A stretch of 64,000 bases of DNA. Origin: Bacteriovorax sp. GTDB lineage: Bacteria > Bdellovibrionota > Bacteriovoracia > Bacteriovoracales > Bacteriovoracaceae. Position 1 is the first letter of the stretch, and every line of letters begins with the position of its first letter. Position numbers and translations under genes: made by a program. Below the pieces are notes generated by a model. The model did no database searches. It was not told the DNA's origin and saw only the letters and a program-made list of their open reading frames with translations. The stretch is taken from contig JACMPM010000100.1 of NCBI GenBank assembly GCA_014377485.1, forward strand, positions 1 through 64,000. Reading direction: 5' to 3'. Of this stretch, positions 30,188-44,963 are shown piece after piece.

Positions 30188-31747
30188 ATGAATTTTTATA
30201 CTGACGATCACCCTATCATTGCATGCAGTACTGGCACTCAAGCCAATACTGCCATTGCAGTGATAAGGCTTTCTGGTTTTAAATCTCTCTTATCTTTACA
30301 ATCTTTTTTCTCATTCTCTTTATCAAAAACTAAGCCGCGTTTTTCTCACCTATCAAATATAATTTTTGAAAATCAAATTTTTGATAATATACTGTTAGTG
30401 TTTTTTCCAGAAGGTGAGAGTTATACCGGTGAAAATGTTTTAGAACTCTCTGTTCACGGTAATTTATTAAATATTCAGAAAATTTTGGATCTTTTTATTC
30501 TTAATGCAGATTTTCGATCCGCCCATCCAGGTGAGTTTACTTATCGAGCACTTAAAAATAAAAAATTATCTCTTTCACAGGTTGAAGGCCTGGATATGCT
30601 TTTAAACGCTAATTCTAGTTTAATGCTTTCACAAGGCCTTGATATACTCCAAGGCGAGCTCCATACTCAATATATGCGCCTTTACGATAGTTTTTTGAAG
30701 CTTAAAGCTGCTGTAGAAATTTCGATAGATTTTTCTGAAGATGTAGGGGAGATGGAGTCTAATAAATTACTTAACGACTCTTTTAATTCTTTTTTTATAA
30801 TCCTGGAATCACTCCATGCCCGCACTCAAGGTAATATTTCTTCTCTTTTATCACCCGAAATGGTTTTAGTTGGTCAAACTAACGCAGGAAAGAGTTCTCT
30901 TTTTAACCTTTTAGTAAAACACAACCGCTCAATCGTTTCTTCCATTGCTGGGACCACTAGGGATTATATTTCCGAAGTGATTCATATCGATGGGACCAAT
31001 TATAATTTAGTCGACACTGCCGGTATTCGTGAATCAAAAGACGTTATTGAGAATATTGGAATAGATCGTGCCTTTGAAATTTTAAAGAGAGCATTTTTTA
31101 AGATTTTAATCGTTAATCCACTTGAAACAGATGAAGCTTATCTAGAAAAATTAGCTGGAATAGAATTTGATTTTTTAATCCTTTCTCACTCTGATAAAAC
31201 AGATTTTTTAAGCAAATCTTCCAATCTTGATTTATCAAAAATTATAGTTTCTCAAGTCGCTATTGCAAGCTTTGAAACTGGTTCTATAGGACCAGTAGAT
31301 CTTAAAATTTTTAAAAGTGGTCCCATAGGACCAGCTTTAAAAAGTGGTTCTATAGGACCACTCACAAAACATGGTCCTATAGAACCACTTACTAAAAATA
31401 CTGCCCCTATAGAACCATTCGCAACAAGTGGTTCTATAAAACCAGTGGAACCAAAAAGTATTAAAATTTCTGGTCCTATAGAACCACTTGTAAAGAGTTT
31501 ATTAGCTGAAAAATTTGGGATAGAGACGAGCAATAGTCCGATTTTACTTGAAAGACATAGAATATGTATAAATAATTTATACTTAAAAGCAACCACATTG
31601 TCTCGTAAAATCAATACTATAGGCGATATGGCTATCTTGTCATCTGAAATAAATATTTTTTCAAATTATCTGAGTGAATTGATCGGGATTATGTCGCCGG
31701 ATGATGTATTAAATTCAATATTTGCAAATTTCTGTATAGGGAAATAG
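30188..31747 (+). CDS. mnmE: tRNA modification GTPase MnmE with a repeat insertion
   Basis: MnmE acts with MnmG to modify the wobble uridine of tRNAs. From ATG 30188 it has 519 residues, against about 455 in most relatives. G1 is GQTNAGKSS (229-237), then GTTRDY and DTAGIRE with the catalytic Glu282. The G4 position reads SHSD instead of NKxD. The C-terminal FCIGK Cys motif is present. Residues 364-433 are a Gly/Pro/Ile repeat (GSIGP, GPIEP units) encoded by a palindromic DNA array, placed where the end of the G domain should be. The upstream in-frame extension overlaps yidC and is rejected. Confidence 0.93.
   Translation: MNFYTDDHPIIACSTGTQANTAIAVIRLSGFKSLLSLQSFFSFSLSKTKPRFSHLSNIIFENQIFDNILLVFFPEGESYTGENVLELSVHGNLLNIQKILDLFILNADFRSAHPGEFTYRALKNKKLSLSQVEGLDMLLNANSSLMLSQGLDILQGELHTQYMRLYDSFLKLKAAVEISIDFSEDVGEMESNKLLNDSFNSFFIILESLHARTQGNISSLLSPEMVLVGQTNAGKSSLFNLLVKHNRSIVSSIAGTTRDYISEVIHIDGTNYNLVDTAGIRESKDVIENIGIDRAFEILKRAFFKILIVNPLETDEAYLEKLAGIEFDFLILSHSDKTDFLSKSSNLDLSKIIVSQVAIASFETGSIGPVDLKIFKSGPIGPALKSGSIGPLTKHGPIEPLTKNTAPIEPFATSGSIKPVEPKSIKISGPIEPLVKSLLAEKFGIETSNSPILLERHRICINNLYLKATTLSRKINTIGDMAILSSEINIFSNYLSELIGIMSPDDVLNSIFANFCIGK
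31279..31486. repeat. Seven-copy array of a 16-bp palindromic repeat inside mnmE
   Basis: Copies begin at 31279, 31318, 31345, 31372, 31402, 31429 and 31471. The two main forms, TGGTTCTATAGGACCA (31279, 31345) and TGGTCCTATAGAACCA (31372, 31471), are exact reverse complements. The other three differ by one or two bases. Start-to-start distances (39, 27, 27, 30, 27, 42) are all multiples of three, so every copy is read in the same frame as GSIGP, GPIGP, GPIEP, APIEP or GSIKP. Spacers between copies are unrelated. Confidence 0.95.
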
Positions 31748-31794: not shown

Positions 31795-31810
31795 TGTTCT
31801 ACGTGGAACA
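31795..31810. promoter_or_regulatory. parS-like ParB-binding site
   Basis: TGTTCTACGTGGAACA is a near-palindrome with 13 of 16 bases equal to the widespread parS consensus TGTTTCACGTGAAACA. It lies in the 65-base gap before mnmG, 3.5 kb from parB. Confidence 0.78.
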
Positions 31811-33666: not shown

Positions 33667-34304
33667 TGAAAGATTTTAGCCAAAAGTACCTAGAGCTGCT
33701 CACTGGAGAATTTGCTGGGATAAATTTAACCAAAATACAAAGTCCCGAAGAGTTTTATCAAAAACAAATCGTAGACTCAGTACTTCCACAAACAGAAAGC
33801 AAGGTTTTTAAAAATGCACTTGAAGCTACAAAACTTCTAGTTGATGTTGGCTTTGGTGGTGGTTTTCCCGTTCTGCCATTAGCATTTATGAACCCAGATA
33901 AAAAATTTATTGGTTTTGATGCTCGTGCTAAAAAAGCTCAGACTGTTCAAAAAATTGCCAATATCTTGGGCTTAACAAATGTCAAATTAAAACATCAGAG
34001 ACTAGAGGTTGTGGACTTTGATATGGACGTGGTCATTACATTCAAAGCAGTGGGAAAAGTTTCAGATTATCTTCCGCTTTTGCGCACTAGCAAAACCCTG
34101 TATGTCTTTTTTTATAAAGGACCAAACTTTTATGAATTAGAAGATATAGAAGCAATGCTTGAAAAGGATTGGGAATTAATTGAAGAAAAATCTTATGATG
34201 TCCCAGGAACCGAAGGTCGTCTTTTATTGGGTTTCAAAAATAGAAAAGTTCTACGTGGAACAATTCAAACAGAAAAAATTATTAAATTTTCTGAGTTACT
34301 TTAA
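33666..34304 (+). CDS. rsmG: 16S rRNA (guanine-N7)-methyltransferase RsmG
   Basis: A 212-residue SAM-dependent methyltransferase that modifies G527 of 16S rRNA. The SAM-binding loop is VDVGFGGGFPVLPLAF, followed by FIGFDARAKKAQTVQKIANILGL. Position between mnmG and parA is the standard origin-proximal order. The last quarter of the gene contains a second parS-like site within the codons for VLRGT. Confidence 0.92.
   Translation: MKDFSQKYLELLTGEFAGINLTKIQSPEEFYQKQIVDSVLPQTESKVFKNALEATKLLVDVGFGGGFPVLPLAFMNPDKKFIGFDARAKKAQTVQKIANILGLTNVKLKHQRLEVVDFDMDVVITFKAVGKVSDYLPLLRTSKTLYVFFYKGPNFYELEDIEAMLEKDWELIEEKSYDVPGTEGRLLLGFKNRKVLRGTIQTEKIIKFSELL
34247..34262. promoter_or_regulatory. Second parS-like ParB-binding site (inside rsmG)
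   Basis: AGTTCTACGTGGAACA is identical to the 31795 site except for the first base, although it lies in coding DNA. Two copies 2.4 kb apart and just upstream of parA-parB support a true partition site. Confidence 0.75.
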
Positions 34305-34355: not shown

Positions 34356-35273
34356 ATGGCTAAAATTATAGCAATGATGAACCAAAAAGGTGGAGTTGGT
34401 AAAACAACATCTTCTGTAAATTTGGCGGCGTGTCTAGCAGTAGCCGAGAAAAAAACTCTACTAATAGACCTTGACCCGCAGGGCAATGGAAGTATCAGTA
34501 TTGGCCTATCAAAAGATAAATTCGCAGGGAAAAATATTTACCATGCTCTTATCGGCCAGATTGGTTTGAAAGAAGCTATTTATGAATCAGAGCTTCCGTA
34601 CTTTGATATTTGCCCTTCTGATAATAATTTATCAGGTGCAGAAATTGAATTAGTAAGTTTGTTTGCACGTGAATCAAAATTAAAAAATGCCTTTAAAGCA
34701 ATTGAAAAAGATTACGATTATATCATCATCGATTGTCCTCCATCGCTAGGTCTATTAACTGTGAACGCCCTCAATGCAGCTCACTCATATATTGTACCTA
34801 TGCAAACAGAATTTTTGGCAATGGAAGGCCTTGCTCAATTATTAAATACGGTAAAATTAATTCGTTCATCATTAAATCCAGATTTAGAATTAGATGGGAT
34901 TTTATTAACGATGTATGATTCTCGTTCAGGTCTTCATAAGCAAGTAGTCAATGAAATTAAAACTCATTTTGGCGATGTTGTTTTCAATACAATTATTCCA
35001 AGAAATGTGAAGCTTGCTGAGTGCCCAAGTTTTGGAAAACCAATCATCCTTTATGATATCGAATCAAAGGGAAGTGAAGCTTATTTGGCATTGGCCAAAG
35101 AGCTTATTCTTAAAGAACGATTTAAAGGTAATTCGAAAGAAAATTCAAAAGAAACATCAGCGAAGAATAATGGATCATCAAGTGTCGCTCAGGAAATCAA
35201 ACTTCCAGAAGAAGAATTGCTCGATATTATTCCCGGACTAGAAACTATTAACTTTGATGGAATTCAAATTTAA
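34356..35273 (+). CDS. parA: Chromosome partitioning ATPase ParA (Soj)
   Basis: A 305-residue deviant-Walker ATPase: MMNQKGGVGKTTSSVNLA carries the signature Lys, followed by LLIDLDPQGN and YIIIDCPPSLGLLTVNAL. It forms nucleoid-bound gradients that move ParB-parS complexes. The C-terminal 45 residues after LILKER are a polar, Ser/Asn/Lys-rich tail not usual for Soj proteins. AAAGGAA precedes the ATG. parB follows after 23 bases. Confidence 0.95.
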   Translation: MAKIIAMMNQKGGVGKTTSSVNLAACLAVAEKKTLLIDLDPQGNGSISIGLSKDKFAGKNIYHALIGQIGLKEAIYESELPYFDICPSDNNLSGAEIELVSLFARESKLKNAFKAIEKDYDYIIIDCPPSLGLLTVNALNAAHSYIVPMQTEFLAMEGLAQLLNTVKLIRSSLNPDLELDGILLTMYDSRSGLHKQVVNEIKTHFGDVVFNTIIPRNVKLAECPSFGKPIILYDIESKGSEAYLALAKELILKERFKGNSKENSKETSAKNNGSSSVAQEIKLPEEELLDIIPGLETINFDGIQI

Positions 35274-35296: not shown

Positions 35297-36244
35297 ATGG
35301 CCAAAAAACTAGCATTAGGAAAAGGGATCGCTTCATTACTTCAAGAGTCGACTCCGCAATCGGTAGTCAGTCAAACTTATCATAATAAGTTTGGAAATAT
35401 GAATGAAGATGAGCAACACGAGCAAGCGCAAGAAAAAGAAGTCGAAATTCGCTATGAGAATTCACCACTTCTGGTTGACGTTGGTTCTATTAAAACCAAT
35501 CCAAATCAACCAAGAAAAATATTCAAAGAAAAAGATCTTGAAGAACTTGCAGAATCAATAAAAGAAAATGGAATAATTCAACCGCTTGTCGTAGCGGAAT
35601 TAGAGAATGGTCAGTTTGAACTAATTGCGGGAGAAAGACGTTTAAGAGCTGCTAAAAAAGCAGGTCTTGAACAAGTTCCTGTAGTTGTTAAGAGAGCGAC
35701 AGATCGTGAAAAAATGATCATGTCTATTATAGAAAACGTTCAACGTGCAGATCTAAACTGTGTTGAAGAAGCACTTGCTTACTACCAACTAATGAACGAA
35801 TACAAATTAACTCAAGAAGATGTGGCCAAGAAGCTTGGAAAAGAGCGATCGACAGTAGCAAACTTTTTGAGAATTCTAAACCTTCCCCGTCCAGTAATAG
35901 ATCTTCTTCAAAAAGAGATGCTCTCATTTGGGCACGCGAAGATTTTAGCAGCCGTTAAAGAGCGTGAGGATGCCATTAGACTGGCAAACGTTGCAGTAGC
36001 TAATGGTTGGTCGGTTCGTGACCTAGAAAACGGAATAAAGGCTAAAAAGCCTATAAAAGAAAAAGCTGAACGAAAAAATCCATTTTTTGATGAAAAGCTT
36101 GATCAATTTAGAAAGACTCTAGAGCAAAAAACAGGATACCACTTTGGTATTAACTCGGGGAAAAATGGAACTGGTCATATCGTTCTTAAATTTAGCAATG
36201 AAGCAGAATTTAACGATATTTACGAATTTCTATTATCGAAATAG
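35297..36244 (+). CDS. parB: Chromosome partitioning protein ParB (Spo0J)
   Basis: A 315-residue CTP-dependent clamp. The N-domain has NPNQPRKIF and the GERRLRAAKKAG nucleotide motif. A helix-turn-helix region (LTQEDVAKKLGKERSTVANFLRIL) reads parS, and a C-terminal dimer domain ends the protein. An unusually acidic stretch (about 35-55) precedes the NPNQPRK motif. It should bind the two parS-like sites upstream. Confidence 0.95.
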   Translation: MAKKLALGKGIASLLQESTPQSVVSQTYHNKFGNMNEDEQHEQAQEKEVEIRYENSPLLVDVGSIKTNPNQPRKIFKEKDLEELAESIKENGIIQPLVVAELENGQFELIAGERRLRAAKKAGLEQVPVVVKRATDREKMIMSIIENVQRADLNCVEEALAYYQLMNEYKLTQEDVAKKLGKERSTVANFLRILNLPRPVIDLLQKEMLSFGHAKILAAVKEREDAIRLANVAVANGWSVRDLENGIKAKKPIKEKAERKNPFFDEKLDQFRKTLEQKTGYHFGINSGKNGTGHIVLKFSNEAEFNDIYEFLLSK

Positions 36245-36262: not shown

Positions 36263-36306
36263 GAATTGAGGTCCTATTAAGCTTCATGCCCCTATAGGAC
36301 CAATTC
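36263..36306. repeat. Hairpin with a repeat copy between parB and the bactofilin gene
   Basis: GAATTG-AG-GTCCTAT on the left pairs with ATAGGACCAATTC on the right (13 pairs, a two-base bulge). The right arm lies in TGCCCCTATAGGACCA (36287-36302), which matches the 16-mer of the mnmE array at 14 of 16 bases. No T-tract follows, so intrinsic termination is doubtful. It could protect RNA ends or bind protein. Confidence 0.65.
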
Positions 36307-36324: not shown

Positions 36325-36675
36325 ATGCAAAGACGACGTGGAGAAGTATCTGCCATTATCGAAGAAGGTTGTAAATTTGAAGGAAACTTATCTTTCAATG
36401 GTACGGCCAGAATAGCAGGGATCGTAAACGGAAGTGTTTTTTCAAATGATACAGTCGTCATTTCAGAAGGGGCGATCATCAACGCCGACATCAACGCTAA
36501 CATCATCATCATTGCAGGATCTGTAAAGGGAAACATCAAAGCGAGTTCTCGCGTTGAGATTTTAAAACCCGCAAGATTTGAAGGAATTATTACGACGCCA
36601 AGTCTCATTGTTGAAGAAGGCGTAATATTCCACGGCACAACAAAAATGCGTGACAAGAAAAATACTCAAACCTAA
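36325..36675 (+). CDS. Bactofilin
   Basis: A 116-residue protein of the bactofilin family (DUF583). A repetitive beta-helix core is seen in AIIEEGCKFEGNLSFNGTARIAG, VNGSVFSNDTVVISEGAIINADI and GNIKASSRVEIL, with short polar ends. Bactofilins polymerise without nucleotide into membrane-associated scaffolds for cell shape or for ParA/ParB positioning. Location directly after parAB, as in several proteobacteria, fits the latter. Confidence 0.9.
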   Translation: MQRRRGEVSAIIEEGCKFEGNLSFNGTARIAGIVNGSVFSNDTVVISEGAIINADINANIIIIAGSVKGNIKASSRVEILKPARFEGIITTPSLIVEEGVIFHGTTKMRDKKNTQT

Positions 36676-42803: not shown

Positions 42804-44963
42804 ATGATCACAAAAAAGACGTTCGTCACAACTTCAAGTTTTATATTAACAGCAGCTTTGCTGTCGCAAATCTATTCGTTTAAAAATACAAGAGACCAAT
42901 CACAATCACTTAATTATTCGGCATTTATTAATCTTTCTCAAAACGTAAAAAGTGTTTCTTCTATTGCCACAGACAGCTCAGTAGTTTCTGAGGATACAGT
43001 TATTACTAAAGATATTATTCAAGTGATTGATAAAGAAATCACAAAAAAAATAAATAGAACTCGCTATTCAATTCGAGTAATCAAAGCACTTATGCCTGCA
43101 AAAGAAGCAAAAAAGATAATTTCTAAAGTAGCAGTTAAAAAAGAAATTCAACAATTAGTGACGACATCAGTTATGAATGATGAAGATTTATCATTATATG
43201 AAATAAATAATTCGGGATTGATTAATCTTTATGCTTTATCTGTAGAAGATATGGCCTTTGCAAAATTTGAATCTGTTAAACTTGCAACTACGTATAATGA
43301 AGAAATAAAAGATGAAGTTGAAGTAGCCCAGGCAAGCACTTTTATTGCCCCTATAGAGGCAGACGTGGTCTCGACTACTCAACCAGAAAGAGATAATATT
43401 GATAATGTTTCAAGTACTAATATTGAAGAGAGTACCATTGCAGATTCAAAAGTTGTAAGCAAAGAAGATAAAGAAGATTCAGAAATGGTGATGTTTGACT
43501 ACTCAGATAAGTCAGCTCCGGCAGCAGTTAAAAAAACAATCGATCAAAAACTTTATGAACGTCCACTTTCTAAAACAGTTCAGCAGGCAATTAGTAGAGA
43601 GATTGGAAGCGTACCAGTAAAGAAATTAATGACAATGAATACTCAAAAAGTATTTCCAGAAGCAACTCAAGAAAGTATTACAAAAATAGATAATCAAGAG
43701 ATTGATTTAAACTCTGATAAAAATACTATTTATGACTATTCACAGTCTAAAAGTAAAAAATCAAAAACTGAAGCTCAAACTGCAGCGGCTGAAGTTGATG
43801 CCTTCATGGCTCCAGTAACTAAAACAGAAGAGTCACAATTTACCCTTAGAGCAAAAGAAATTAATTTGAGTACTCAAAAAAGACGACAAGCTTTAACGTT
43901 TGAATTCGTTCCCGACTATGACCGTGCTGAAAGAAGTGACGATCAGGGAAGCGGAGAGATTGCATTTGGTTACTCATTAAATGGCGAAATGAATACTCAA
44001 ACGGGAGTGCTTCAAGCTCAGGGAATGATATCTACTAGAGTAGAATTAAATCTTGGCGGAAAAGCAAATTATGAAGTTCCACTTATAAATGAAGAAGGAA
44101 TGCAGAAGTTTTTACAAAAACAAGGATTGTCGATTGAGGGAAATCTCATCATGCTGGCACTTGATCCTTCTATAATTGATACAGAAATTGATTCCAGGTT
44201 TGCAGCTAAATTTTTCTTCGATAAAAACTTTAAACCTGTGAGCTCTGCCAGTGGGGCAAGTGCTGTTATGTACGCCGGTGTGAAAACGGGGAATGTAATG
44301 ATTCGTTACCTGCTTAACAATAAAGAAAGTGCTCAGAAAATTGTTTATGTGGGCGATGGTGAGATGTATTTTGAGGATTCTGAATTTTTGGACAGCTATA
44401 GAGAGACTTTTACTTTCACAACTAGAAACTTGCTTGGTCAAAAAAGAAAAGAATTGATTATTGATGGTGGAGCGATCTCATATTTTAACACTAACAATAT
44501 AGCTAAGAAAAAAGCATTAAATGCCTATGATATAAAAATACCACCTCAAATAAGCGGTATGAGAAAATACCTGGAATTTAAGCATCTAAAAGATAGTATC
44601 TTTGTGGGTTCAGCAGGTGAAAAAGATATTGAAATTCCAAGCAACGACTTTATTGGAAAAGTTTTAGAAATGAATCAAGTGAGCAGTCTAAAAGATCGCT
44701 GTGTTGTTCAAATCAATCTTATGAAAGATTTGCGCGAGATAAAGGCCAACGGAAAAAATCGAAGTGGTGAAATGTTTGTAGAAACATCTTACCTAGATAA
44801 AGATGGTAACTTCTCACGAGATAGTGCTGAAATGGCGGAGAAGGTATTTATCGTTGGTGATCTTGAAGGACAGTTCAACGTTAAACTTGATTATACTGAC
44901 GGATCAACAGAGTTTCTTAAGACATTTTGTTCTGAAGGGACTTATCTAGTAGAGCAGCTTTAA
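42804..44963 (+). CDS. Large envelope protein of unknown function
   Basis: A 719-residue protein I do not recognise. It has an N-terminal hydrophobic segment (SSFILTAALLSQIYS) that is a signal or anchor. A low-complexity, Val/Ile/Asp/Glu/Lys-rich region follows (about 40-340). The C-terminal half is a globular, beta-rich domain (about 350-719, with two late Cys residues). The middle of the gene carries a 16-bp palindrome related to the mnmE repeat (43346) and a TTGAGTACTCAA site (43866). It has its own promoter and ends one base before the convergent patatin gene. The architecture suggests a periplasm-spanning stalk with a folded outer domain. Confidence 0.75.
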   Translation: MITKKTFVTTSSFILTAALLSQIYSFKNTRDQSQSLNYSAFINLSQNVKSVSSIATDSSVVSEDTVITKDIIQVIDKEITKKINRTRYSIRVIKALMPAKEAKKIISKVAVKKEIQQLVTTSVMNDEDLSLYEINNSGLINLYALSVEDMAFAKFESVKLATTYNEEIKDEVEVAQASTFIAPIEADVVSTTQPERDNIDNVSSTNIEESTIADSKVVSKEDKEDSEMVMFDYSDKSAPAAVKKTIDQKLYERPLSKTVQQAISREIGSVPVKKLMTMNTQKVFPEATQESITKIDNQEIDLNSDKNTIYDYSQSKSKKSKTEAQTAAAEVDAFMAPVTKTEESQFTLRAKEINLSTQKRRQALTFEFVPDYDRAERSDDQGSGEIAFGYSLNGEMNTQTGVLQAQGMISTRVELNLGGKANYEVPLINEEGMQKFLQKQGLSIEGNLIMLALDPSIIDTEIDSRFAAKFFFDKNFKPVSSASGASAVMYAGVKTGNVMIRYLLNNKESAQKIVYVGDGEMYFEDSEFLDSYRETFTFTTRNLLGQKRKELIIDGGAISYFNTNNIAKKKALNAYDIKIPPQISGMRKYLEFKHLKDSIFVGSAGEKDIEIPSNDFIGKVLEMNQVSSLKDRCVVQINLMKDLREIKANGKNRSGEMFVETSYLDKDGNFSRDSAEMAEKVFIVGDLEGQFNVKLDYTDGSTEFLKTFCSEGTYLVEQL

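Follow-up and report, generated by a model that had tools for sequence, protein, structure and literature searches.

A conserved array of 16-bp sites at the origin of Bacteriovoracia as a candidate second centromere, with ParB2 as its putative reader

The palindromic elements of Rickettsia are far longer than 16 bp and are dispersed through the genome. Other known systems that resemble the locus described here are the ParABS system, with parS sites of the TGTTTCACGTGAAACA type, and the Noc protein of the Firmicutes, which reads a parS-derived palindrome (NBS) alongside ParB. Two residues, R173 and G201, have been reported to be absolutely conserved in parS-binding ParB proteins (PMC7383237). 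In Bdellovibrio, which belongs to the phylum studied here, two parS sites lie near ori, and both are close to the consensus in sequence (PMC10547168). A comparative-genomics paper on this phylum mentions neither ParB nor MnmE in its main text (PMC11656739).

Here, we analyzed a 64,000-nucleotide stretch of Bacteriovorax sp. DNA (the window), in which a preliminary description had singled out a repeated palindrome inside mnmE. The site is conserved throughout the class Bacteriovoracia, clusters at oriC, and is under selection at the level of DNA; neither an earlier description of it nor its sequence was found in the literature searched.

Seven sites within mnmE

The window covers the oriC neighborhood of a 3.95-Mb genome assembled in 147 contigs and includes gyrA, gyrB, recF, dnaN, dnaA, rnpA, yidC, mnmE, mnmG, rsmG, parA, parB, a bactofilin-type gene, and atp genes; some names derive from a Pfam scan and the remainder from sequence and synteny. 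Seven 16-bp near-palindromes occupy window positions 31279-31486, inside mnmE (Table 1), in an insertion that alignment with solved MnmE structures places after the G domain and ahead of the C-terminal helical part. As a separate observation on this protein, the G4 motif NKxD is replaced by SHSD (window 31170-31205), and most members of the class have SHxD or THxD; therefore, base recognition by the GTPase may be altered.

Four of the seven sites match TGGTTCTATAGGACCA exactly in one orientation or the other, while those at 31318, 31402, and 31429 are each two bases off. The preliminary description had counted seven copies of a strict palindrome or its exact reverse complement, some extended to 20 bp; the number stands, but exactness is confined to these four. 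The 16-mer is self-complementary at 14 of its 16 positions and is hence an imperfect palindrome with the consensus TGGTYCTATAGRACCA, beside which a second half-site form, TGCCCC, is common in the class. The supposed extension to 20 bp is incidental, since across 198 sites the bases on either side pair just as often as expected. By contrast, the spacings are all multiples of three, as had been stated (39, 27, 27, 30, 27, and 42), and the mnmE frame is unbroken. When up to three mismatches are allowed on both strands, the window contains 16 matches vs. 0.28 expected from shuffles. Beyond the array, two more sites that the preliminary description had missed lie in the window, at 36287 (in the parB-bactofilin gap) and 43346. 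The degenerate pattern TGSYYCYATRGRRSCA has eight copies genome-wide, all within the window: six in mnmE and one at each of these two positions.

The new site is like parS in its 16-bp length, its TG...CA ends, and the C at its sixth position. The two sequences diverge at 16-mer positions 3, 7, and 8, with three differences in each half-site. The array sequence fails to match the canonical parS consensus, and canonical parS is present separately.

Table 1. Coordinates of the array, its neighbors, and the parAB2 genes (window positions unless prefixed by a locus).
Feature	Position	Strand	Description
dnaA	26142..27752	-	Marker of the oriC neighborhood
mnmE (trmE)	30188..31747	+	tRNA-modification GTPase; array host
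Site 1	31279..31294	+	TGGTTCTATAGGACCA, exact match
Site 2	31318..31333	+	TGGTCCCATAGGACCA
Site 3	31345..31360	+	TGGTTCTATAGGACCA, exact match
Site 4	31372..31387	-	Reverse complement of site 1, exact match
Site 5	31402..31417	-	TGCCCCTATAGAACCA on + strand; mixed half-sites, including the TGCCCC form
Site 6	31429..31444	+	TGGTTCTATAAAACCA, degenerate copy
Site 7	31471..31486	-	Reverse complement of site 1, exact match
Canonical parS	31795..31810	+	TGTTCTACGTGGAACA, mnmE-mnmG gap
Second canonical-type parS	34247..34262	+	AGTTCTACGTGGAACA, end of rsmG
parA (ParA1)	34356..35273	+	
parB (ParB1)	35297..36244	+	R173 and G201 retained (Caulobacter numbering)
Site 8	36287..36302	+	TGCCCCTATAGGACCA, intergenic, between parB and the bactofilin-type gene
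Bactofilin-type gene	36325..36675	+	3' of site 8; named from its position after parB, as in Bdellovibrio (synteny, PMC10547168)
Possible site 9	43346..43361	+	TGCCCCTATAGAGGCA, within ORF 42804-44963; weaker, two TGCC half-sites
ParB2	L113:3190-4071	-	293 aa; contig C26
ParA2	L113:4115-4888		Adjoins ParB2

Class-wide distribution at oriC

Among 57 genomes (the source genome and its relatives), the pattern is present in 33, all belonging to one family. In a class set of 129 Bacteriovoracia genomes of one family, the degenerate pattern occurs in 123, including all 73 of high quality, with a maximum of 19 sites per genome, and the six genomes without it are at most 87% complete; a reversed control pattern gave only single matches, in nine genomes of the same set. 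The strict pattern was found in 116 of the 129, compared with one of the 240 genomes from elsewhere in the phylum (one single match). The site is thus more general than could be told from a single window. Among plasmids, mnmE had no match. Viral contigs yielded 60 stretches with a site, all but one of them single, which is the level expected by chance because the collection is so large. The one double match is a collagen-like phage ORF (L292:1961-2012), in which Gly-Pro-Ile-Gly-Pro coding produces two exact copies of TGGTCCTATAGGACCA, probably a coincidence.

Clustering near the origin, for which the preliminary description had proposed a genome-wide count, was confirmed with oriC stretches of 4-26 kb from the source genome and 33 relatives, which hold 203 of the 245 sites found genome-wide in these genomes. 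For example, in a near-complete genome consisting of one 3.44-Mb chromosome (G015), nine of nine exact sites fall at 3419873-3432515, within 12.7 kb at the origin, and parB2 lies at 3.05 Mb. The MnmE insertion carries sites in nearly all genomes compared, and the parB-bactofilin gap carries one in 18 of the 28 genomes with a contiguous region; further nearby locations are dnaA, mnmG, rsmG, and the yidC-mnmE gap. In another instance (G026), MnmE is free of sites, and seven palindromes with 27-bp spacing lie in frame within the N-terminal linker of ParB1 (L104:8940-9117), alternating between two site forms. One assembly (G006; contigs C45, C109, and C140) contains two mnmE versions that differ in array copy number, which suggests a strain mixture and copy-number change.

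ParB2 and other candidate readers

Three ParB_N proteins are encoded in the source genome. One of them, ParB2, is encoded directly behind ParA2 in all 33 loci compared, far from oriC, and was found in 119 of the 129 genomes of the class. Of the other ten genomes, nine are 68-85% complete. The tenth, G101, which is 99% complete and has sites but no ParB2 match, was considered as a counter-example and set aside, as its contig ends within parA2. A scan of 84,980 species returned 109 relatives of ParB2, and the 80 listed bear titles of Bacteriovoracia type or of unspecific MAGs. Another of the three (L114:3287-4201, minus strand, contig C54 of the source genome) is a weak match (30 bits) with no adjacent ParA; among the family genomes searched, about two thirds encode it.

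The ParB_N domain of ParB2 scores 58 bits against PF02195 (cut-off 26.3, Pfam), and its GERR motif is invariant, as befits an N-terminal domain of the CTPase type. Its PDB and fold matches are Noc, ParB, and Spo0J. The best PDB sequence match is Noc (E 4e-19), with an alignment extending through residue 193. A close orthologue, modeled with AlphaFold (mean pLDDT 76.6, pTM 0.52), likewise has Noc as its first fold match (E 6e-12). In this model, a helix-turn-helix follows the CTPase domain (helices 139-203, pLDDT about 85-93), although Pfam HTH_ParB did not reach E 0.01 in ParB2. The recognition helix, GISKSEVHR(S/C)L, hardly varies, and alignment places K at 173, S or C at 179, K at 184, and neither G nor R at 201. 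The LG[K/R]G motif for ParA binding (PMC12704722) was not found in ParB2; hence, the pairing of ParA2 with ParB2 is based on the adjacency of their genes, and ParB2 may make another contact or play a Noc-like role.

Reading of the site by ParB2 at its own locus was considered and rejected. No exact site occurs at the 33 family and 80 named parAB2 loci, nor is any palindrome shared within 500 bp, and thus the target of ParB2, if palindromic, lies elsewhere. TGCCCC half-sites are associated with Cys179 of ParB2 (0.39 vs. 0.11, p 0.002), which fits ParB2 as reader; this association was discounted as independent support, since the C179 genomes form one clade and represent a single event. In one genome (G017), ParB2 is present and the sites are few and degenerate. 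Overall, ParB2 would be the most economical reader, and it probably reads the array.

The co-occurrence of ParB2 with the sites is class-wide, and any class-specific DNA-binding protein would be distributed alike. The reader could accordingly be another such protein, for instance a nucleoid-associated protein, an SMC loader, or a regulator of replication or division, and DNA-level selection holds whatever the reader; even so, we consider this unlikely, because the site is built like parS (16 bp, TG..CA ends, C at position 6), and the class as a whole has a suitable ParB-family protein, whose recognition helix is altered and whose own locus is free of such a palindrome.

ParB1 might instead read the new sites as well as canonical parS, with the array strengthening or modulating a single known centromere. 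Array and parS are indeed interleaved around parAB1, and one array is located inside ParB1 itself. However, R173 and G201 are kept in 29 of 29 genomes compared, as is typical of strict parS readers (PMC7383237), ordinary parS sites are found in the same regions, and the new site departs from parS at the three positions given above. As ParB1 retains its parS-reading residues and canonical parS coexists, another reader is likely, and reading by ParB1 is improbable.

ParB2 could also be the reader in a Noc-like capacity, anchoring the origin to the membrane or blocking division over it, with ParA2 as a regulator and no DNA segregation. This role would agree with the Noc structures at the top of its sequence and fold matches and with the missing LG[K/R]G, which Noc lacks as well (PMC12704722). 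It appears quite improbable, as the sites of Noc are spread over the chromosome (PMC4331003), whereas the array sites are confined to oriC, and a ParA gene adjoins parB2 in all loci compared.

DNA-level selection and a putative second centromere

Codon usage was analyzed in 152 G[SP][IM][GE][PA] motifs. The Ile codon is ATA in 117 of 122 cases vs. a background of 17%, and the Gly codon is GGT in 150 of 152 vs. 37%; in addition, T precedes the motif in 147 of 152 cases, at what is the wobble position of a residue under no constraint. Examined per genome, the codon contrast persists even where background ATA usage is 3-8%. The 198 exact sites comprise only nine distinct 16-mers, and within arrays mean identity is 0.90 for sites vs. 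0.45 for flanks, with information content falling at the 16-bp edges. Intergenic copies are spaced by 23, 34, 31, 32, and 37 bp, which are not multiples of 3. In two relatives, the site is read as another peptide, namely WSYRT in mnmG (G016) and, for one copy, VLWGQ in MnmE (G018). Taken together, codon choice, intergenic copies, and non-conserved spacers place selection on the DNA rather than on peptide or RNA. Every computational check named in the preliminary description supports its proposal of DNA-level selection on a putative protein-binding array near oriC and parS: the site outlasts changes of peptide, frame, host gene, and coding status, and synonymous changes in relatives, which had been named as the mark of protein-level selection, are nearly absent. 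We therefore predict with high confidence that the array consists of DNA-binding sites.

Among the oriC regions compared (L078-L112), mixed half-site pairs are more frequent than expected and perfectly symmetric sites less frequent (TTC/TTC 17 observed vs. 28 expected; TCC/TCC 17 vs. 35), possibly reflecting avoidance of hairpins. The arrays of G001, G007, and G010 are near-perfect 27- or 30-bp tandem repeats, and their near-identical spacers indicate that tandem duplication renews arrays.

Two further explanations carry very little probability. Protein-level selection for a linker of the G[PS]IGP type, or local slippage expansion, could draw on these tandem repeats and on the collagen-like viral ORF, in which GPIGP coding can yield the same 16-mer, but it is extremely unlikely given the retention of the rare ATA codon, the other frames and host genes, the unrelated spacers, and the intergenic copies that contradict it; of the slippage envisaged in the preliminary description, the pure form is refuted and tandem duplication as a force shaping some arrays remains. 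A mobile palindromic element spreading as in Rickettsia would suit the in-frame insertion in several coding genes, yet this, like a selected RNA hairpin, is scarcely credible: the conserved unit is merely 16 bp, eight of eight sites in the source genome lie in the window and those of other genomes mostly at oriC, copies far from oriC are no more frequent than chance, and the commonest mRNA-strand form, TCC...GAA, would set C against A in a hairpin, which argues against RNA-level selection.

On a slight balance of probability, the array is a centromere ('parS2') at the origin, set in permissive places, chiefly the MnmE loop, with ParB2 as its most likely reader. Whether it serves as a second centromere is, in our estimation, an even call. 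We tentatively suggest two ParABS-type systems at one origin, ParAB1-parS and a ParAB2 whose own centromere is set in frame within MnmE (or ParB) and also next to parB. On the model of ParABS, dimers of ParB2 would load onto the multiple 16-bp sites and then probably spread as a CTP-dependent clamp, as the conserved GERR motif suggests. ParA2, or another partner, may use the ParB2-array complex to move, space, or position origins, and the ParAB2 system would act beside, yet separately from, canonical ParA1-ParB1-parS. We infer the reader, the clamp action, and the biological role alike.

If this reading is true, a second centromere with its own ParA-ParB pair shares chromosome and origin with canonical ParABS, and it is conserved across an entire class of predators; their close model, Bdellovibrio, uses parS in an unusual, cell-cycle-gated manner. 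ParAB2 might order the many sister origins of a multi-nucleoid filament in non-binary division. The housekeeping gene mnmE would harbor a class-wide DNA-level signal within a permissive loop, and the ParB/Noc family would gain a new sequence-specificity pair.

Compared with known systems, the array resembles Rickettsia palindromic elements in being palindromic DNA in frame within protein genes, but its unit is 16 bp and confined to oriC. Bdellovibrio bacteriovorus, of the same phylum, likewise has parAB followed by a bactofilin gene and two canonical parS near ori (PMC10547168); unlike in Bacteriovoracia, the palindrome is limited to one single match in the 240 other phylum genomes. With Noc/NBS, the array would share the reading of a parS-derived palindrome by a ParB-family protein with altered specificity residues, the top structural match of ParB2 being Noc; the NBS sequence differs from the array site, a ParA gene adjoins ParB2, and Q173/K179/K184/R201 of Noc correspond to K, S or C, K, and a residue other than G or R. 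Like parS in ParABS, the array sites are short palindromes of 16 bp that have TG...CA ends, cluster next to oriC, often lie within genes, and are conserved among relatives, and genes for a ParA-ParB pair of the appropriate family exist; the array departs from ParABS in the half-site sequence, in the recognition helix of ParB2, in the distance of parA2-parB2 from the sites, and in the coexistence of a complete canonical ParABS. Judged by its specificity residues, ParB2 is neither a canonical ParB nor a Noc, and the array would work like a parS cluster, yet it is not canonical parS.
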